This document shows positions 317 to 54,712 of a DNA stretch of 64,000 bases, one piece after another. This stretch comes from an uncultured Porphyromonadaceae bacterium (GTDB lineage Bacteria > Bacteroidota > Bacteroidia > Bacteroidales > Muribaculaceae): the NCBI GenBank assembly GCA_947643165.1, contig CANRVB010000011.1, positions 1-64,000 of the forward strand, in the 5' to 3' direction. The translations under genes and the position numbers were made by a program. Positions within the stretch are counted from its first letter, which is position 1. Every line of letters begins with the position of its first letter. The notes under the pieces were generated by a model. It did not search any database. It saw nothing but the letters and a program-made list of their open reading frames with translations, and was not told the DNA's origin.

Positions 317-1373
317 ATTCGGGTAATGTCAGAATTACAGAAAACACCATATCGGTCTTATCAACATCCAGATTGTAGTTATTGCCGTAGATAAGTCGCA
401 GACGCTCAGCGGCATTACTCAATCCTATGCCGCTGCGTCGATTGTCGCTTTCAGAATGAATACTGTTGATACAGCTGAACACAATCTTATCATCAACAGT
501 CTCGACCTTAACCGATACAAACGAATCCTCACGATAGCTGACACCATGCTTGAAAGCATTTTCGATATAGACCAGATAGACCAACGGTGCGATCCTTATG
601 CCTGCAACTGCGTTGTCATCAGGCAGTTCGGCTATGATCCTAACCTTCGATTCTGGGAATCGCTGGCGCATGATAGACAGATAGTTGCGTATGAATGCAA
701 GTTCCTCAGACAACGCTATCATATTCTTAGAGCTATCATAGAGCATATAGCGCATCAGTTTCGACATATCAAGCACCATATCCTGAGCTTTCGCAGGATT
801 TATTTCTATCATTCCATGAATATTGTTGAGCATATTCATGTAGAAATGAGGATTTATCTGAGCCTTCAGATAGTTCAGACTATTCTCGGCGTTGGATTTG
901 AGAAGCCGCTCATGCTCCAGCCTGTCGGCATAGCGCTGAAACAGCAATGCCGTAGCAAGATTGAGCACAACAATGAGCATATCGCATATTAGGTCGATGA
1001 ATACTGGGAGCGCGATGAGCGGAGTGAACCGGGGCGGCATATGCGGTCCGTGGCTGTGTCTCGACACTTCATAGATGAACTGCATGTACTGGCAACCCCA
1101 CACGCACATCAGGACTATTATAGTCAGAATGAAATATTGCGTGTATTTGTTCCGGAGGAGGAGCCGTGGTATGAGCAGACAGTTGTTTATGAGAAACAGG
1201 ACTACCAGATAGATCAACTGGATGCCACGATGAACCACAACCTCCCAATCGAGAGGTGTATTCCATGAAAAGTTTCTCGACCGCAACGCATCGAGAACCA
1301 ACAGTGCCACAACGACTGTCCAAGTGATAATATAGACAATTGTCTCAGTTTTCCGACCCTTGTTTATAGCCAT
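288..1373 (-). CDS. LytS/YehU-type membrane sensor histidine kinase
   Basis: 361 residues. Four hydrophobic segments lie near residues 10-29, 52-69, 80-97 and 118-144, with no sizeable periplasmic domain. They are followed by a His_kinase block in which NPHF (174-177) carries the likely phosphorylated His176 and then MNMLNN. A GHKL ATPase follows with an N-box around ENAFKHG and a G-box at GIGLSNAAERL. This is the architecture of LytS-class kinases that pair with LytTR regulators, and the overlapping downstream regulator fits. The signal is unknown. The ATG at 1373 is the first in frame, with a promoter-like -7 box just upstream. Confidence 0.88.
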   Translation of the reverse strand: MAINKGRKTETIVYIITWTVVVALLVLDALRSRNFSWNTPLDWEVVVHRGIQLIYLVVLFLINNCLLIPRLLLRNKYTQYFILTIIVLMCVWGCQYMQFIYEVSRHSHGPHMPPRFTPLIALPVFIDLICDMLIVVLNLATALLFQRYADRLEHERLLKSNAENSLNYLKAQINPHFYMNMLNNIHGMIEINPAKAQDMVLDMSKLMRYMLYDSSKNMIALSEELAFIRNYLSIMRQRFPESKVRIIAELPDDNAVAGIRIAPLVYLVYIENAFKHGVSYREDSFVSVKVETVDDKIVFSCINSIHSESDNRRSGIGLSNAAERLRLIYGNNYNLDVDKTDMVFSVILTLPEYENKDIDHR

Positions 1374-3253: not shown

Positions 3254-4270
3254 ATGAACGCAAATTCACTCGAACCACTTTTCATACCTCCGACCTCCGA
3301 TCCCGGTCCATTGGCCGAACTTGCACGCGATAAAGCTGCTTTAGGTGAATTGCGCAGAGCTGTCGACTCAGTTCCTTTCAATACAGTATACGATTTCATG
3401 CGCTCGGCCGCACTCGACATGGCCAACCGCGGAATGACAGACAAAGCGGTCGGCTATATTTCAGATTTTGATGAAATGTTGACACGCGCCGGCGATTCCA
3501 ATATCCGGTCGCTCGACATACATGCCGCCATGATGCAGATAAAGAGCGCGTTGCTTGCCATGGCAGGTGATTTCGATGAGGCACTCTCTACCGCAGCAGC
3601 CACTCTCAGACTACTTGCACAGGAACCAAAACGCAAGGATGAACCATTTCTGAGCGTACTCGCATCGCTACTTTACGACATAGCCTTGATACACAATGAG
3701 CGAGGTGAGTACAAGCAGGCCGAACGCTCACTTGAAAAATCAACAAAACTGTTTGACAGACTGGCCCGTATAGATGCCGCACGATATGGAGCGCCGCATA
3801 TACTCTCGGTAAGTGCTGTCACAACCGTATACCGCAGCCGTTCAAAACAGGCTGAGGCACTGGCCGCTATCCAGGAACAAACCGCCAAATACATCGAGGA
3901 GGTGCAAAGCGGCGCCGAAGACGCAACAGTAAAACTCATAGATGCTTTGGCTGAAGAGGGACGCACACTCGCCAAGATGGGCAAGAACCGCGAGGCCATA
4001 CAATATTTTTCAAAAGCCATGCGATCGCTCACACGTATAGAACCCGATCTGACCATGCGTGGCCTTGAAATATCCGTTGACCTCGGTATAGCCCTGTTGT
4101 CGCAGAAAGCCACACGGGAGAAAGGTGTGCACCTGCTCAATACAATGCTGCATAAAGCAACAAAACTGCGTGCAAGCGATCAGTATGAACGTATATGCGA
4201 GGCGCTATCGCACGATAAAGAGGGTACTTTTGACATTCTCTCTATCTGGCACAAGATATTTCCACGCTGA
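3254..4270 (+). CDS. TPR-repeat protein of unknown role
   Basis: 338 residues, largely alpha-helical and rich in Ala, Leu and Glu. TPR-like helix pairs are visible, for example ALIHNERGEYKQAERSLEKS near 136-155 and LAKMGKNREAIQYFSKAMR near 236-254. No signal peptide or membrane segment is seen, so a cytoplasmic scaffold is likely. It starts 14 bases after the PfkB-fold gene and ends 30 bases before ribH, so it is probably in the same transcript. No enzymatic motif is recognised. Confidence 0.7.
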   Translation: MNANSLEPLFIPPTSDPGPLAELARDKAALGELRRAVDSVPFNTVYDFMRSAALDMANRGMTDKAVGYISDFDEMLTRAGDSNIRSLDIHAAMMQIKSALLAMAGDFDEALSTAAATLRLLAQEPKRKDEPFLSVLASLLYDIALIHNERGEYKQAERSLEKSTKLFDRLARIDAARYGAPHILSVSAVTTVYRSRSKQAEALAAIQEQTAKYIEEVQSGAEDATVKLIDALAEEGRTLAKMGKNREAIQYFSKAMRSLTRIEPDLTMRGLEISVDLGIALLSQKATREKGVHLLNTMLHKATKLRASDQYERICEALSHDKEGTFDILSIWHKIFPR

Positions 4271-4300
4271 CAAATCACAATAATCAACAAATTCATTATC

Positions 4301-4774
4301 ATGTCGACCAATACTCCAGCCACCCCGATCCCAGTTGTTGAAAACGCCCGAGTTGCCATTATCACCGCCGAATGGAATGGCCACATCACTAATGAACTTG
4401 CTGATGGCGCATACAGAACCCTGACAGCCAACGGCTTCAGTAAGGAAAACATCGAGACATATCATGTTCCGGGTGCCGTAGAGCTCACATTTGCAGCACG
4501 TTGTGCCATAGATCGTAGAAATGTAGATGCAGTGATAGTGTTTGGTGCTGTTGTACGCGGCGACACACCTCATTTCGATTATGTCTGCCAGAGTGTAACG
4601 CAAGGTATCTCCATACTCAATTCCGAAGGCAAAATTCCGGTCATATTCGGCCTTCTCACTGTAGATACCGAGCAGCAAGCCATTGACCGTATCGGTGGTC
4701 CTGCCGGACATAAGGGTATAGAAGCGGCTGAGACTGCCATACGCATGATAGCTTTCAACCGCAGCTGCCGCTGA
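4301..4774 (+). CDS. ribH: 6,7-dimethyl-8-ribityllumazine synthase
   Basis: 157 residues, the normal length. The enzyme joins 5-amino-6-ribitylamino-uracil and dihydroxybutanone phosphate in riboflavin synthesis and assembles in the cytoplasm as a pentamer or icosahedron. Diagnostic segments are the substrate loop AEWNGHIT, VPGAVELTFAA, FGAVVRGDTPHFDYV with the catalytic His (near 97), FGLLTVDTEQQA and GHKGIEAAE. It is the last gene of the group starting at 1599. In many Bacteroidales ribH also follows a TPR-protein gene, a recollection I could not check here. Confidence 0.95.
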   Translation: MSTNTPATPIPVVENARVAIITAEWNGHITNELADGAYRTLTANGFSKENIETYHVPGAVELTFAARCAIDRRNVDAVIVFGAVVRGDTPHFDYVCQSVTQGISILNSEGKIPVIFGLLTVDTEQQAIDRIGGPAGHKGIEAAETAIRMIAFNRSCR

Positions 4775-4876
4775 CAGGCACTTCTCACCGGTTCTTCTTT
4801 ACATTTCCTGTCAATAAGTATGTAAACAGCCACTCCGACTGCTTACGCTTTTCTATTATCCTGTTTATCCAACCAA

Positions 4877-6367
4877 ATGAATTTCATTACATCCGAAAAT
4901 ATTCTTCTGATAGGGTCATCCATTCTCATAGCGGGTGTCCTTATTGGCAAAACCACTTACAGAATAGGACTGCCGTTGCTGCTTATATTTCTACTGGTAG
5001 GCATGGGATTCGGTTGTGACGGGCTGGGCATACAATTCAGCGATATGCACACTGCCCAATTCATAGGCATGGTGGCTCTGTGCATCATTCTATTTTCGGG
5101 AGGTATGGATACAAGCATATCAGCCATACGTCCGGTTCTTGTGCCTGGTCTGGTACTGTCGACCGTCGGAGTGCTACTTACAGCGCTCCTGACGGGAACA
5201 TTCGTATGGTGGCTGTCGGGAATGTCATGGACAAACATTCATTTTGCGTTCCTGCCGTCATTATTGCTGGCAGCCACAATGTCGTCGACCGATTCGGCAT
5301 CTGTATTCGGAATTCTGGGTACTCAGAAAGTAAACATACGCGAGAATCTGCGTCCCATGCTCGAACTTGAGAGCGGCTCAAACGATCCAATGGCTTATAT
5401 GCTGACAATAATCCTCATCGAGGCGATAACCATGGATGGCCGTCTGTCGATATCATCACTTGTGGTACAGCTTATAATGCAATTCGGCATAGGAGCTATA
5501 GGCGGCATGCTTATGGGTCGCCTTACCCTGTGGCTTATAAGATGTTATAAATCGATAGGAAGCAACAATGGGGCCAAAGAGGATGCCGGACAGGCACTTT
5601 CAATGATCTCGATACTAATCCTGGCATCTGTCTTCTTCACATTTGCCGTAACCACCGCCCTACATGGCAACGGCTACCTGGCCGTATATATCTGCGGAAT
5701 GGTAATCGGCAATGCCAATCTGGCGGGTCGCAGGGGCATAGGTAAATTTATGAGCAGCATGACGTGGCTCGCCCAAATCGTAGTTTTCCTAATGCTCGGT
5801 CTGCTTGTCAATCCTCATGAAATGATAGACGTTGCAGCAGTATCAATACTCATAGGTATATTCATGATAGTGGTTGGACGGCCGGTCAGCGTATTTCTAT
5901 CACTATGGCCTATCGGAAAAATATCCATGCGGGCAAGGTGTTTCATATCGTGGGTAGGTCTCCGCGGTGCCGTGCCTATTATTTTCGCAACATATCCTGT
6001 GGTATCGCAGATCGAAGGAGCATCACAGATTTTCAACATAGTATTTTTCGTAACCCTTCTGTCGCTTATAATCCAAGGTACAACAGTGATCCGCAGCGCA
6101 CGGGCCCTGCATCTGATCGGCCCGGATACAAACGATGATGAGGAATTTGGCGTTGAACTCGCCGATGAACTTCCAACCTCACTCCAGACTATCACACTAA
6201 CTGAACGTATGCTTCAGGAAGCTGATAATCTGCGCGATATGCAGCTTCCGGCAGGATCACTTGTTATGATGATAAAACGCGGAGAAAAGTATATAGTACC
6301 CAACGGCAGGCGAAAACTGCGGTGCGGCGATGTGCTGTTGATAATAAAAGAGGATGTGGAATCATGA
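4877..6367 (+). CDS. CPA1-family cation/proton antiporter with C-terminal TrkA-C-like domain (K+/H+ type)
   Basis: 496 residues with about 12 hydrophobic segments through residue 400. The ion-site region reads SSTDSASVFGIL (near 136-147) and ELESGSNDPMAYML (near 163-176), as in NhaP/CvrA exchangers. Residues about 410-496 leave the membrane and resemble a TrkA-C (RCK-C) ligand domain (LPAGSLVMMIKRG, RCGDVLLIIKED), as in the K+/H+ antiporter NhaP2/CvrA. It probably exports K+ or Na+ from the cytoplasm in exchange for protons. Ion preference cannot be fixed from sequence. A 102-base gap separates it from ribH, so it may have its own promoter. Confidence 0.88.
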   Translation: MNFITSENILLIGSSILIAGVLIGKTTYRIGLPLLLIFLLVGMGFGCDGLGIQFSDMHTAQFIGMVALCIILFSGGMDTSISAIRPVLVPGLVLSTVGVLLTALLTGTFVWWLSGMSWTNIHFAFLPSLLLAATMSSTDSASVFGILGTQKVNIRENLRPMLELESGSNDPMAYMLTIILIEAITMDGRLSISSLVVQLIMQFGIGAIGGMLMGRLTLWLIRCYKSIGSNNGAKEDAGQALSMISILILASVFFTFAVTTALHGNGYLAVYICGMVIGNANLAGRRGIGKFMSSMTWLAQIVVFLMLGLLVNPHEMIDVAAVSILIGIFMIVVGRPVSVFLSLWPIGKISMRARCFISWVGLRGAVPIIFATYPVVSQIEGASQIFNIVFFVTLLSLIIQGTTVIRSARALHLIGPDTNDDEEFGVELADELPTSLQTITLTERMLQEADNLRDMQLPAGSLVMMIKRGEKYIVPNGRRKLRCGDVLLIIKEDVES

Positions 6368-49099: not shown

Positions 49100-49131
49100 G
49101 CGGGGCGGACATACCCTCATGTCCGCCCCGC
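49100..49131. repeat. REP-like palindrome, copy 1
   Basis: 13-bp stem GCGGGGCGGACAT (49100-49112) and its complement (49119-49131) with a 6-base loop, between convergent gluQ and the PorT-like gene. The arms and the flanking CTTATCTATCTATTCT recur at copy 2 (52101-52144). Probably also works as a terminator. Confidence 0.75.
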
Positions 49132-49893: not shown

Positions 49894-50325
49894 TTACTTC
49901 CCGTTGTTATATCCGAAATACCACGTTGGAGCCTTCTCATCTACATGGGTAAGTATGACCGTTTCGATATATATGCTGATGGTTTCACCTATTCCCACAT
50001 CTTTCAGACACTCGCTATCATTCATGGGATAAAGCGCTACCGACAAACTGGTGTCAAGCGGGCATAAAACGCTTACACTTTTCCAGTCCGCATACTCTAT
50101 ACTTACAACATACTGTTCTATTACCTCATCATACTTAATGACACCACTGATCTCAGTAAATATTGAGTCTGATTGTGGTATCGTGCAGATATACGATTCC
50201 GGAGACAGCTTTTCCATCTCCTCCTCCTCACTGCAAGCCGTCATCGCCATGCCCGCGATCATCACGCCCACCATCACCATGATGAGCGTCAGCCCGTCTT
50301 TCAAACCATTCTTCATGTTTTTCAT
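49894..50325 (-). CDS. Small lipoprotein of the shared-leader array, member 1
   Basis: 143 residues. The leader MKNMKNGLKDGLTLIMVMVG...TAC is near-identical to that of four neighbours; lipobox MAMTAC gives acylated C31 followed by an acidic EEEEMEK tract. The mature part has a weakly conserved beta pattern: ISGVIKYDEVIEQYVVSIE, then IGETISIYIE (a G-[DE]-T/I strand) near 115. It may be an OB- or sandwich-like domain. Surface or periplasmic location is inferred from the signal. No known family recognised. Confidence 0.7.
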   Translation of the reverse strand: MKNMKNGLKDGLTLIMVMVGVMIAGMAMTACSEEEEMEKLSPESYICTIPQSDSIFTEISGVIKYDEVIEQYVVSIEYADWKSVSVLCPLDTSLSVALYPMNDSECLKDVGIGETISIYIETVILTHVDEKAPTWYFGYNNGK

Positions 50326-50347
50326 CTGTTTGATATATTACGCTCGT

Positions 50348-50796
50348 TCACAACCCGATGTATACACTACTCTCTCCTTCCCTATCTTCCCTCTCTCCGT
50401 TCGAACGTGAATTTACCACCTCCGACAGGATTATGTCATGACATACAGACGTCTTGGTCTCATACACAGGCACAGGGATATAACCTATTATATTGGCGGT
50501 GATAATATCCCCATCCTTATATTTCAGAAAAGAAGGACAACGTACATACTGTTTGATCGAAGAGTCGCTCACCCAGTTATTGTCAACATCAGTCACCTCA
50601 AGCATTACATCAATACTGTCATAACTTACCACACCCGTTATTGTCGCCTCATGTTTAACAAACTGTACCGGAAATGAGCACATATCATCCTCCTCATCAT
50701 TGCTGCACGCCATCATTGCCATGCCCGCGATCATCACGCCACCATCACCATGATGAGCATCAACCCGTCTTTCATACCATTCTTCATGTTTTTCAT
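50348..50796 (-). pseudogene. Small lipoprotein of the array, member 2, broken in its signal peptide
   Basis: The ATG at 50796 opens the shared leader, but a C is missing near 50739-50741 compared with all four sister genes. The leader frame then ends at TGA after 20 codons, and this TGA overlaps an ATG (TGATG) that opens the mature frame. A restart would give only MIAGMAMMAC before the mature part, too short to be a signal peptide. The mature frame (TGVVSYDSIDVMLEV, FLKYKDGDIITANI) is otherwise intact to 50348. Likely non-functional as a lipoprotein. Confidence 0.65.
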
Positions 50797-50819
50797 ATGT
50801 TTGATATTGGTTTATGTTA

Positions 50820-51370
50820 TCTTATTTTCTCTTACAGCCTTGCTTTATCTACCTCACCTGCGTTTCCACTCCCGATAAATGTCGATTAGTCTATCGGTGC
50901 AAATTTCGCGGCGCCGGTTGTTCCTCAAATAGATCCGGAATTTCGCTTCGGCTGTTAATTTCAGTTTGACGTATTTCTGTTATACAAGGAACACGCAGAT
51001 ATTTATTCCCTTCCACTGTAATAGTGTCTGTATAGATAAAAGAGTTAGTGTTACGATCTATACCGATTAAACTCCATATCATTATAGCAGGACCTGCCTC
51101 AATTTCAGACAGTGAGTCAGGTATAATAATGGGATATTCTGTTTCCGGATTATGATCAACTTCACGAAATATCTTTGAATTAATCAAAGAGTCCAGTTCT
51201 ATTATTCCATTACTTTGAATTCTTCCTAAGGGAGGGTCGGACAGTACAGGATTATAGTCAGGCATCTCCTCGTCGCTGCACGCCGTCAGCGTCATGCCTG
51301 CGATCATCACGCCCACCATCACCATGATGAGCATCAACCCGTCTTTAATACGGTCTTTTACATGTTTCAT
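50820..51370 (-). CDS. Small lipoprotein of the array, member 3, relic of a protease-gene duplicate
   Basis: The open frame is 50891-51370 (159 residues). Leader and lipobox (LTAC, C30) are as in the neighbours. Residues 50-135 align by eye with the N-terminal domain of the metalloprotease at 52177-54246 (LDSLINSKIF versus YDSIVSSKIF; IIIPDSLSEIEAG versus VLIPDSVPNMELG). DNA similarity continues past the stop to about 50842 (for example CCTCACCTGCGTTT in both), so this is a truncated copy of that gene that lost the catalytic domain. It may still be made as a lipoprotein. Confidence 0.6.
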
Positions 51371-51418
51371 AGTCTTTTTGATTGGTTTAGGTTTATAACT
51401 CCGCTATAATAGTATATA

Positions 51419-51853
51419 TTATTTCTGGTTAATTTCAGTGATAGGAACGCTCACATAGAATACTCCGTTGCTCTCCATTATTCCGTAACGCCTTGCCATG
51501 GGGATGAATACTGACACCGTGTCCCCGACCGTGTACTTGTCATACGAATTTGCCGGCCGTGGTACTAACGAATAGGTGGATGCTGTCTTGCTGGTTATCT
51601 CACTGACTCCATTCCACTCATCCGCACGCACATCTATCACAACCATTTCAAGACCTGCGTCAAGTCTTGCCACACCGGTTACATTTTGATTGATAGTATC
51701 AAATTGTTCCCCGACAATACACCAGTTGTTCTGCTCATTGCCATTTCCCTCATCTTCGCTGCACGCCGTCAGCGTCATGCCCGCGATCATCACGCCCACC
51801 ATCACCATGATGAGCATCAACCCGTCTTTCAAACCATTCTTCATGTTTTTCAT
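51419..51853 (-). CDS. Small lipoprotein of the array, member 4
   Basis: 144 residues. Same leader (MKNMKNGLKDGLMLIMVMVG), lipobox LTAC, acidic start SEDEGNGNE. Mature part follows the array pattern: VTGVARLDAGLEMVVIDVR, YTVGDTVSVFIP and a closing FYVSVPITEI, which matches KYLRVPCITEI in member 3. First gene of the transcription unit for members 4 to 1, with a -7 box TAATTTTG at 51939-51946 on the minus strand. Confidence 0.72.
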   Translation of the reverse strand: MKNMKNGLKDGLMLIMVMVGVMIAGMTLTACSEDEGNGNEQNNWCIVGEQFDTINQNVTGVARLDAGLEMVVIDVRADEWNGVSEITSKTASTYSLVPRPANSYDKYTVGDTVSVFIPMARRYGIMESNGVFYVSVPITEINQK

Positions 51854-52100
51854 CTGTTTGATATTGGTTTATTTGTTCTATTCGGCTGTCCGCGGCACAG
51901 CACACCCCGTAGAAGCCTGTCCGCGTCCTCGCTCCTTGCAAAATTAGTCAATTTTTACATCACTCAACAACTTTTCCTTATTAAAAATCAATATGTTATA
52001 AAACATCCATTCCTCCATGCAAGATTTTCCCACATCCGCGATTATATAATATTGGCCCCACCCTTTCCCGCAACCCATCCGCCACCCATCCCCCCCATCA
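51854..52100 (-). promoter_or_regulatory. Leader and promoter region of array members 4 to 1
   Basis: TAATTTTG at 51939-51946 (minus) with a weak TTG-like -33, and a leader of about 80 bases containing a repeated GCGGACAG pair. The rest up to the palindrome at 52101 is AT-rich then C-rich, with no ORF that I can support. Confidence 0.45.
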
Positions 52101-52144
52101 CGCATCGCGGGGCGGACACATCTTCATGTCCGCCCCGCGATGCG
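52101..52144. repeat. REP-like palindrome, copy 2; terminator of the metalloprotease unit
   Basis: Perfect 18-bp stem (52101-52118 with 52127-52144; CGCATCGCGGGGCGGACA) and 8-base loop. Its core GCGGGGCGGACA and the flank TTATCTATCTATTCT match copy 1 at 49100. It separates the protease unit from the small-lipoprotein unit. Confidence 0.78.
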
Positions 52145-52176
52145 TAGGCTTATCTATCTATTCTATTTTCATCACA

Positions 52177-54246
52177 TTATATTGCAAAAGGTATCTCCTG
52201 CGTATACCCGTTGCCGTCGCTCACAACAGCCTTATACTCGCCTTTCGGCCAGCCCGCTGTGTTCACCTCAGCCGACATACGCCCATCCGACGCTTCCATC
52301 CGCTTCACCTCATTACCCGAAGCGTCATATACCACAACGCTGCCTATCGACCGCTTCGCCGCTGGTGCCATCTGCTTCCCGCCGGTCGGTGTTGCGCCCA
52401 TCCGCGAATCAAACGTCACACTGCCGTCGGCAACGTTCACGCCGTAATACGCTCCATACACCGTCACCGGTATCGTGAAATACCCGTCCGATGCTCCGCA
52501 GTCATCATACGTCCTCACCTTCAGGAAACCCTGCGAGCAGTCAGCCTTGTTCACAGTCATTGTCTTGCCGCTCAGCACCCTGTTGGCAGCCGTAACTACC
52601 CTGTAGTCAAGCCCCGACAGCGTTGCCCCCGCCATATCAAGATAGCTCAGGTCGAACGTCACATCTCCGCTCACACTCATCGGCTCGCCGTGGCTCATGT
52701 TTGTCGTGACACCATGCTCTCCTCCGGTGCTCTCCCACAGCAGCTGACCCGTAAACGGCGACGGCGCTCCGCTGGTTATCATTACAGTTGGCAGTGTTCT
52801 GCCATGCTGCATCCTCATCACCCTCGGTGTAGCTTCTATTATTTCCGACTTGCTGCTCGATATCGTGATATTTGTGCCATAAAGGGTTTCAGTAGTCTCT
52901 ACAAGCGCACCCTCTTCGGCTCCGGCAGGTGCCGACTTGTGCACTATTGTCCATATCACCGACTCCAGATTGTCATTCTGCTTAAGGGTCAGTGTTGTCG
53001 AGCTTTTGAAATGCTTGCTTGCCGGTCCCGTCACCGCATATTCTGCCAACGTCGACTTTAGAATGCCGTCATTGTTGATATGATACTGCATCGCTGTTAT
53101 CTGCATAGGCGAGAACCGATTGCGGACATTATGGCAATAGCTCATTAGTAGTGTTGGATCAGGATTATAAGACTGTCTTTTTCCGTCAACTAATCCCAAA
53201 GCACTGTTATACTCCACTCCTCCAATCCATTTATTGGGATCTGCAGGCGTATCAGGTATATAATCACCAGCTATCAGGCCATTGCTACCGTCGGCATATT
53301 CTGGAACTCCTGATTCGTTTGGATCCGTGCCATGATGAGTATGATACAGACCTAAGCAGTGACCCATCTCATGTGAAACAGTTGTAGAATTTCTGTTTTT
53401 AAGGCGTACTATTAACGATGTTTCTCCGATATCCTTACTTGTGCCCGCGACTGTAGCATCTGTGATATTTATATCATTTAGCTCATATATATCAATTCCG
53501 TTTCCATGTCCATCAAGACCATATAGCTTGTTGCAAAATTCAGAGTTTGTCAAAGATGACTCCCACTCTCTTTCTGAAACCTTATGTGTTGTTACACCTT
53601 TCAGAATGAAGTATATACCCGAACCGGAATAATACTTATTAAGTTCCGATATGATAGATTCTGCGTTTGTATTCGGGCTGCTTATAGCCGCACTTCCGGT
53701 AAATTCTATCCCGTGATAATACACATTTATTGGGCAGTAGTTATTTTCATCCTCACCTGCGTTTCGGCTTCGGATAAGTGTCGACCAGTTGATTGGAGCG
53801 AAATTAGAGGTCTCAGTTGTGATACCGCAATCTCCCGATTCTATTGAACTTCTGCTTATAGGATATTTTTGATCATATCCTATATATATAACCCGTGTAT
53901 ACGTCTTCCCACCTGCTATAAATGTAGTAGAGTTGTTTTCAATCCATGTTAAGCAAGCCTCACCGAGTTCCATATTAGGAACAGAATCAGGAATCAACAC
54001 CCGATACTCCCTATTTACTGATGAGGTAGTATCATTGACATAAAATATCTTGGATGAAACTATGGAATCATATGTTATTACTCCTCGAAAGTATTGAAAA
54101 TTAATTTCATAACAGATTACGGAGTTATTATTTTCAATCTCCTCCTCGTCGCTGCACGCCGTCAGCGTCATGCCCGCGATCATCACGCCCACCATCACCA
54201 TGATGAGCATCAACCCGTCTTTAATACGGTCTTTTGACTGTTTCAT
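52177..54246 (-). CDS. M43-type (pappalysin/cytophagalysin) zinc metalloprotease with lipoprotein leader
   Basis: 689 residues. Shared array leader with lipobox LTAC (C30). Residues about 45-140 form the domain also seen alone in the small lipoproteins. The catalytic domain has the metzincin site HEMGHCLGLYH (292-302: His292, Glu293, His296, His302) and a Met-turn region with LLMSYCHN near 370, as in family M43. A beta-sandwich region and a C-terminal domain follow; the end (VVVYDASGNEV, WPKGEYKAVVSDGNG) resembles a type IX secretion sorting domain. It should cleave proteins at or outside the outer membrane. 22 bases downstream of the DUF3244-like gene. Confidence 0.82.
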   Translation of the reverse strand: MKQSKDRIKDGLMLIMVMVGVMIAGMTLTACSDEEEIENNNSVICYEINFQYFRGVITYDSIVSSKIFYVNDTTSSVNREYRVLIPDSVPNMELGEACLTWIENNSTTFIAGGKTYTRVIYIGYDQKYPISRSSIESGDCGITTETSNFAPINWSTLIRSRNAGEDENNYCPINVYYHGIEFTGSAAISSPNTNAESIISELNKYYSGSGIYFILKGVTTHKVSEREWESSLTNSEFCNKLYGLDGHGNGIDIYELNDINITDATVAGTSKDIGETSLIVRLKNRNSTTVSHEMGHCLGLYHTHHGTDPNESGVPEYADGSNGLIAGDYIPDTPADPNKWIGGVEYNSALGLVDGKRQSYNPDPTLLMSYCHNVRNRFSPMQITAMQYHINNDGILKSTLAEYAVTGPASKHFKSSTTLTLKQNDNLESVIWTIVHKSAPAGAEEGALVETTETLYGTNITISSSKSEIIEATPRVMRMQHGRTLPTVMITSGAPSPFTGQLLWESTGGEHGVTTNMSHGEPMSVSGDVTFDLSYLDMAGATLSGLDYRVVTAANRVLSGKTMTVNKADCSQGFLKVRTYDDCGASDGYFTIPVTVYGAYYGVNVADGSVTFDSRMGATPTGGKQMAPAAKRSIGSVVVYDASGNEVKRMEASDGRMSAEVNTAGWPKGEYKAVVSDGNGYTQEIPFAI

Positions 54247-54268
54247 AACTCGATTGGTTTATTTTGGT

Positions 54269-54652
54269 TTATAACTCCGCTGCATATACCACTCCCGATG
54301 GCAATGTCAGCTTGATCATCGACAGGTTTGCTCCTACGCTTACGCCCGCTTCAAGCTCTCCGGCAGTCACAACCTGAGTCGTTGTAGCATATCCACCATT
54401 GGCTGTGGTCAGGATATAATCGCCTTCCGCATATTCGCTGCAAACTAACTGTAGCATATCCTCTCCGTCATACAGTCCGTAGACCACAAACGGATTCACG
54501 GCAGGAACTCTCTTGTGTTTGTCTTTCCGCTCCTTCTGCAAAACGATTGGCGAATCGATCGGATCATCACCGCTATCGTTCTCGAAGTCTTCGGCCGATA
54601 CCGTCCCTATGCAAAAGATTATTCCTGCTACTATGCTGAGCAGTTTTCTCAT
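54269..54652 (-). CDS. DUF3244-like secreted protein
   Basis: 127 residues. Signal peptide 1-20 (ending VSA), acidic segment EDFENDSGDDP, then IVLQKERKDKHKRVPAVNP and a small beta-sandwich (LQLVCSEYAEGDYILTTANGG, SMIKLTLPSGVVYAAEL). This resembles the short DUF3244 proteins of Bacteroidetes. Function unknown. It heads the transcription unit that includes the metalloprotease and has a full promoter just upstream. Confidence 0.6.
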   Translation of the reverse strand: MRKLLSIVAGIIFCIGTVSAEDFENDSGDDPIDSPIVLQKERKDKHKRVPAVNPFVVYGLYDGEDMLQLVCSEYAEGDYILTTANGGYATTTQVVTAGELEAGVSVGANLSMIKLTLPSGVVYAAEL

Positions 54653-54680: not shown

Positions 54681-54712
54681 CAAATTTAAGTCAAATTCAT
54701 CAACCGCCCAAA
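54681..54712 (-). promoter_or_regulatory. Bacteroidetes-type promoter of the protease unit
   Basis: On the minus strand, TTTG (54709-54712), a 20-base spacer and TAAATTTG (54681-54688): a full consensus match, 28 bases before ATG 54652. Confidence 0.78.

Follow-up and report, generated by a model that had tools for sequence, protein, structure and literature searches.

The window analysed here is a stretch of 64,000 nucleotides from an uncultured, probably gut-dwelling Porphyromonadaceae bacterium of the GTDB family Muribaculaceae (GenBank assembly GCA_947643165.1, contig CANRVB010000011.1, positions 1 to 64,000). Between positions 49,894 and 54,652, its minus strand encodes a metalloprotease, P1 (52177..54246; 689 amino acids), and four short open reading frames (ORFs), D (51419..51853; 144 amino acids), C (50891..51370; 159 amino acids), B (50348..50737) and A (49894..50325; 143 amino acids), which are related to the N-terminal domain of such proteases. 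An initial annotation, made by a model from the sequence alone, had described these as five consecutive genes sharing one leader. The ORFs do lie on the minus strand where it placed them, but they are not the full content of the stretch, which also holds a sixth gene, E (54269..54652, minus strand; 127 amino acids), for a small secreted protein. The order along the minus strand is E, P1, a GC-rich hairpin, D, C, B and A, followed by a gene for an outer-membrane barrel.

The leader DNA is present at P1 and at A to D alike, the other four copies being 86 to 98% identical to the leader region of D, and its single further copy in the genome lies at a second protease, P2 (C6:73876-75969). By eye, the leader with its lipobox Cys can be recognized in A, C and D, and P1 and P2 likewise start with a lipobox leader instead of a classical signal peptide. 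In B, the leader DNA (50738..50796, minus strand) is out of frame with the D-related domain in this assembly, the listed ORF beginning within the leader. The common leader is thus found in the DNA of all five genes but not in the reading frame of B, and the description of four short lipoproteins fits A, C and D, with the reservation that C is a truncated copy of a P1-like protease.

The architecture of P1 can be followed along the minus strand from the leader and lipobox (54151..54246), which it has in common with A, C, D and P2, to an N-domain homologous to C and A (53842..54150), a Cys-Gly pair (53824..53829), a catalytic domain with the zinc motif HEMGHCLGLYH (53341..53373) and a constant C-terminal part (52180..52590) with 97% DNA identity to P2. 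The Cys-Gly is presumed to form a cysteine switch, a role modelled on the available text of a report on mirolysin (PMC6949598). P1 and P2 (698 amino acids; L024:7877-9973, on contig C6) are 50% identical, with constant ends and a variable middle; the DNA of their last 149 residues is 90 to 100% identical, and both end in EIPFAI. The assignment of P1 to the M43 family is borne out by its HExxHxxGxxH motif and by its paralogue, which scores 39.7 bits in Pfam against a cut-off of 23, whereas P1 itself stays below this cut-off with 18.4 bits. The Cys between the N-domain and the catalytic domain is nearly invariant across 15 aligned rows, although it precedes Gly in P1 and Tyr in P2. A match to the type IX secretion tail reaches 20.7 bits, under its cut-off of 23, and SprA of that system is encoded in the genome.

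Lipoproteins A to D and P1 have a homologous domain of ~100 residues. When local alignment scores were compared with those of 500 shuffles per pair, no shuffle equalled C-P1 (117), A-D (79), B-D (57) or A-P1 (56), few were as good as A-B (46; 13 shuffles) or B-P1 (44; 14), and many were as good as D-P1 (34; 81), A-C (31; 134), C-D (31; 124) or B-C (28; 260). Leave-one-out profiles clearly recovered A (3e-4, best shuffle 0.04) and D (5e-4, best shuffle 0.026) and marginally P1 (0.0016, best shuffle 0.0023), while B (0.11, best shuffle 0.089) and C (0.049, best shuffle 0.053) scored at shuffle level. The shared domain that had been proposed from inspection by eye is therefore supported by several pairs, though the profiles do not set B and C apart from shuffled sequence. 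A comparison of free copies with fused domains by hhalign was not counted; since A and the P2 domain are near-identical, its two sides are not independent.

The origin of two of the free copies can be read from the DNA. Over 111 codons, the DNA of A is 95% identical to that encoding the N-domain of P2, with 107 of 111 residues the same; the match stops a few codons past the stop of A, while P2 continues toward its catalytic domain. This identifies A as a free copy of the N-domain of P2, and not of that of its neighbour P1. C is 53% identical to P1 over P1 residues 1-110, leader included, and beyond its stop the DNA (50845..50890, minus strand) still matches P1 near 53820-53744, with a score of 67, where none of 1000 shuffles scored above 48. 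By sequence, C is the 5' piece of a P1-like protease and the counterpart of P1 among the free copies. For D and B, no full-length protease counterpart was found in the genome. The DNA identity between A and P2 and between C and P1, together with the recurrence of the arrangement in other Bacteroidales, supports the idea that a non-catalytic protease domain exists here in stand-alone copies; the further idea that the neighbouring protease was the one copied fits C, a piece of a P1-like protease, and fails for A, whose match lies on another contig.

Such remnants raise the question of whether the small ORFs are functionless 5' ends of duplicated proteases, left behind by deletions. The decayed protease sequence past the stop of C, the few matching codons beyond the stop of A, the out-of-frame leader of B and broken proteases in relatives all speak for this explanation, which may apply to B and C. 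For A the pattern of substitutions is a different one. An ungapped comparison with the P2 domain gives 16 base differences, 14 of them at third codon positions (hand count), and a gapped one gives 1, 3 and 14 differences by codon position. Among codons with a single change, 11 are synonymous and 3 nonsynonymous, with one double-change codon in addition, whereas free drift of A over half the divergence predicts ~22 nonsynonymous changes (P 2e-5). This marks A as a protein constrained by purifying selection and not as mere debris; among A to D, this evidence covers A alone. Free copies also recur in other species, and as an account of the small ORFs as a whole we consider debris unlikely.

The leader of A tells a second story, being 94% identical to that of D and 78% to that of P2, which makes A a mosaic of a D-like leader joined to a P2-like domain. 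Together with the build of P1 and P2, constant at both ends and variable in between, this would suit a store of cassettes, in which the free copies donate N-domains that recombine into expressed proteases. A is, however, the one such mosaic seen and is under selection in its present form, and neither a recombinase nor an inversion signal was noticed at the site, though no search was aimed at them. A cassette store thus appears very unlikely.

Protease relatives are rare near home (none in 33 other genomes of the genus, 4 in 396 other genomes of the family). A scan of genome contigs with the P1/P2 alignment returned no relative, one with four catalytic domains returned 42 loci, and viral contigs held no relative. 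The six window domains, searched against 397 family genomes, gave real matches in their own genome only; eight others, at E-values of 0.007-0.033, were chance-like. The combination of a fused domain with a free copy beside M43-type proteases recurs in other Bacteroidales. In Bacteroides heparinolyticus (L042), the gene after an N-domain-bearing protease encodes a free copy, which in its mature part is 85% identical to the fused domain. In the sheep-gut Bacteroidaceae RGIG5379 (L044), an N-domain protease is followed by a free lipoprotein that has a near-identical leader and a domain nearest to that of B. heparinolyticus. Upstream of the L044 protease stand a DUF3244-like protein and a TPR/HTH protein, in the same order as at P2; the TPR/HTH proteins of the two loci are related (9e-11), E and the DUF3244-like protein hardly (0.01). 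In P. massiliensis (L045), a free domain lies immediately upstream of a protease without it, in an uncultured Bacteroides (L048) two free-copy lipoproteins, assigned by eye, stand upstream of a protease without the domain, and a Muribaculaceae contig (L051, taken as contig L036) has two units with their own leader. It would have counted against the initial annotation, by its own standard, if relatives of the small lipoproteins never occurred near an M43 protease; in the related genomes surveyed, free copies do lie beside such proteases (L042, L044, L045).

When 15 mature domains, among them five from the window, were combined in a profile, it had three Protein Data Bank (PDB) matches at E-values up to 10, all of them to potempin A of Tannerella forsythia (5e-4 to 1e-3), which the available text of PMC10909966 terms a cell-surface protease inhibitor. 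The window rows are unnecessary for this result, since a profile of four relatives alone again has potempin A as its sole PDB family within the same limit, at 5e-4 to 1e-3. Across 393 genomes of the order, the four-relative profile made one match, to an orthologue whose E-value against potempin A is 2e-21. A profile that included the leaders reached 6.6e-7 with potempin A and was set aside; leaders inflate scores, and we therefore relied on mature-only profiles. The orthologue (genome G587, L083:817-1173, minus strand) adjoins a matrixin ORF of 103 amino acids (381-692, minus strand), a pair that by sequence is of the potempin A/karilysin type. As for the window's own domains, hhalign of the six against the potempin-type group was equalled by 1 of 60 and 0 of 60 column shuffles, compared with 27 of 60 for a control family, and a nine-column block is present in A, B and P1 (p 0.016-0.04; at least 0.13 in eight control proteins).

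Next to the proteases, small lipoproteins are more widespread than this domain. By an adjacency rule that was loosened after misses, was applied equally to the control and still misses L042, a small lipoprotein adjoins the protease at 11 of the 16 closest loci and at 4 of the 26 more distant ones, the figure for other genes across the 42 loci being 10 of 139. Four of these 11 (L044, L045, L048 and L051) are of the window's domain type, with L042 as a fifth; the remaining seven, five of them ELKYGD-type lipoproteins and the other two from L041 and L054, show that the adjacency is broader than the window's domain. Lipoproteins of ~190-205 amino acids with the ELKYGD motif stand directly upstream of M43-type proteases without N-domain (L039:4509-5072, L043:3963-4577, L046:7247-7846, L047:130-741, L053:7184-7792). 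They gave no PDB match below an E-value of 0.5 and no link to potempin A, and their comparison with the window's domain was equalled by 27 of 60 column shuffles; they are possibly another inhibitor family. Small lipoproteins of 131-139 amino acids with a G-x-W-K start lie directly downstream of the protease at four of the 26 more distant loci (L055, L059, L075, L080). Catalytic-domain matches occur in 49 of 384 genomes of the order, own included. Inspection of 15 of these loci revealed a protease ORF by motif in 11 and, by eye, an adjacent small lipoprotein in one (L130, genome G538), where 144 amino acids encoded at 3694-4128 overlap by 4 bases the start of an M43-type protease (4125-5834). 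The more distant proteases are thus mostly without a neighbouring small lipoprotein. Several proteases of relatives are split into overlapping or adjacent ORFs (L037:8068-9889, L045:7770-9538, L036:1947-5294), from which breakage seems common in this gene family, unless the assemblies err there. Fused and separate architectures are intermixed in the catalytic-domain tree, with 4 changes; we do not claim repeated fusion because 1 of its 17 inner branches is well supported.

The genes from E to A appear to be transcribed in two parts. A GC-rich, terminator-like hairpin (52107..52138, minus strand; z -9.8) lies between P1 and D, a promoter-like site precedes E (54681..54712, minus strand), and a possible promoter box, TAATTTTG, was seen by eye upstream of D (51946-51939). 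The site before E resembles promoters of the Bacteroidales type, whose consensus has 6 matches in the window, this site among them, against 0.57 expected by chance. Together, these signals suggest two transcription units, E-P1 and D-C-B-A. A single transcript of P1 with D to A is doubtful because so strong a hairpin separates them, and the cotranscription that had been assumed at first is not borne out. The same hairpin (GGGGCGGACA...TGTCCGCCCC) lies after three transcription units, at 49100-49131 and 52107-52138 of the window and at L024:10010-10065. Gene E, to which a Pfam search assigned no family, has a signal peptide different from the leader of A, C, D and P1, and a block of 87%-identical DNA including a copy of E is also found upstream of P2. 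Further upstream, window positions 54994-54671 (minus strand) are the relic of a TPR/HTH-type gene, whose parts (54994-54900 and 54896-54671) match the two termini of its intact counterpart upstream of P2 (L024:5587-7347), ~1.6 kb having gone between them.

These findings lead us to a potempin/KLIKK-like system, in which the small lipoproteins and the N-domains of P1 and P2 would form one domain family, anchored in the membrane and binding metzincin-type proteases, a reading to which we give slightly better than even chances. It draws on the homology of N-domain and free copies, their recurrence beside proteases, whether fused and free (L042, L044), free before a domain-less protease (L045, L048) or in two units (L051), the selection on A, the match of relatives to potempin A and the near-invariant Cys. 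Several results weigh against it. The nine-column block was not found in D, and in C only at an unexpected place. A profile of the window's domains alone has no PDB match at E-values up to 10, an hhalign comparison between four window rows and nine relatives has an E-value of 0.38, a profile built without the window rows finds none of the window's ORFs, and with external profiles the domains of P2 and A score 0.026-0.23, about the level of the best shuffles. Moreover, A to D lie downstream of P1 and behind a hairpin, whereas potempin genes lie directly upstream of the protease, and P2, the counterpart of A, sits on a different contig. By sequence, the copies in the window are therefore linked to potempin A only weakly; what ties them to it, along with these weak signals, is that the domain occupies an identical position in proteases of one kind, and from this we infer a potempin fold.

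The family databases leave room for a different role, in which the N-domain is a tether, exosite or substrate-binding domain and its free copies serve as adhesins or decoys or are ordinary, for example NigD-like, surface lipoproteins. No small lipoprotein has a Pfam or NCBIfam assignment above cut-off, but A weakly matches DUF5088 (E-value 0.0019; 18.4 bits, cut-off 29.4), and D, alone among them, very weakly matches NigD1/NigD2 of NCBIfam (E-value 0.07). Both matches fall below cut-off and the sole PDB match of the relatives' profile is an inhibitor family, which makes a role of this kind quite unlikely. The relatives' match to potempin A favours an inhibitor or immunity role, and on the strength of this resemblance we regard the free copies as probable inhibitors of such proteases or as their protective partners.

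Inhibition in cis and in trans seems the likeliest purpose of such an arrangement. The domain of P1 and P2, located between the lipidated N-terminus and the presumed cysteine-switch segment, would act in cis and keep the zymogen at the membrane. A cut after the switch segment would free the catalytic part and leave the N-domain behind as a lipid-anchored fragment, in the same form as the free lipoproteins. The latter would be trans-acting inhibitors or immunity proteins, with A matched to P2 and C-type copies to P1. This division between cis and trans, the inhibition itself and the surface location are what we infer from the features above. The full scheme, a self-inhibited lipid-anchored protease whose built-in potempin-type inhibitor stays active on the membrane after zymogen cleavage and has several times given rise to free immunity proteins against paralogous proteases, acting in trans, is a tentative proposal that we think less likely than not. 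The potempin/KLIKK-like reading, if true, would extend the potempin/protease system from Tannerella to other Bacteroidales, place an inhibitor-type domain and a protease in one polypeptide in more than one lineage, and provide matched pairs (A/P2, C-type/P1) for a direct comparison of cis and trans inhibition.

The statement in the initial annotation that no system with this layout has been described was too strong, as KLIKK proteases follow lipoprotein genes according to the accessible portions of PMC4404884 and PMC7296668. In Tannerella, the first of these describes a small lipoprotein gene before each KLIKK protease, near-identical C-terminal domains among the proteases, and no significant similarity among the six associated lipoproteins; the second names these lipoproteins potempins and states, from data then unpublished, that they inhibit the co-expressed protease. 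The closest parallel by sequence is potempin A with the matrixin karilysin of T. forsythia (PDB 8b2m, 8b2n, 8b2q), a surface lipoprotein of similar length beside a metzincin protease, which relatives of the window's domain match. Potempins are separate proteins whose genes directly precede the protease in the available text of the same two reports, whereas here the domain is also fused; a free copy directly upstream of the protease is seen in L045 and L048 only, not at P1, and the lipoprotein signal typical of potempins is present in A, C and D but not in frame in B. NigD1/NigD2 resemble D as Bacteroidales lipoproteins, but the match has 12.9 bits against a cut-off of 60. The likeness to the KLIKK proteases, and to mirolysin (a pappalysin, M43) among them, lies in the small lipoprotein neighbours and in paralogues with near-identical C-termini (available parts of PMC4404884), as well as in the pappalysin-type catalytic domain and the Cys-Gly of P1, mirolysin latency being attributed in the available text to a Cys-Gly switch within a 34-residue segment (PMC6949598). 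P1 and P2 differ in ending in EIPFAI and not KLIKK, in starting with a lipoprotein leader where KLIKK proteases have a classical signal peptide, and in their extra N-domain. Because of the missing KLIKK end, the lipoprotein leader and the position of A to D, which are not directly upstream of P1, we have not filed the system as a potempin/KLIKK member. A potempin-type domain fused to a protease is not described in the titles and abstract beginnings of the open-licence literature among the matches listed. As far as these partial sources go, the pairing of the potempin/KLIKK type is already known, and the new part is an inhibitor-type domain fused to the protease itself.

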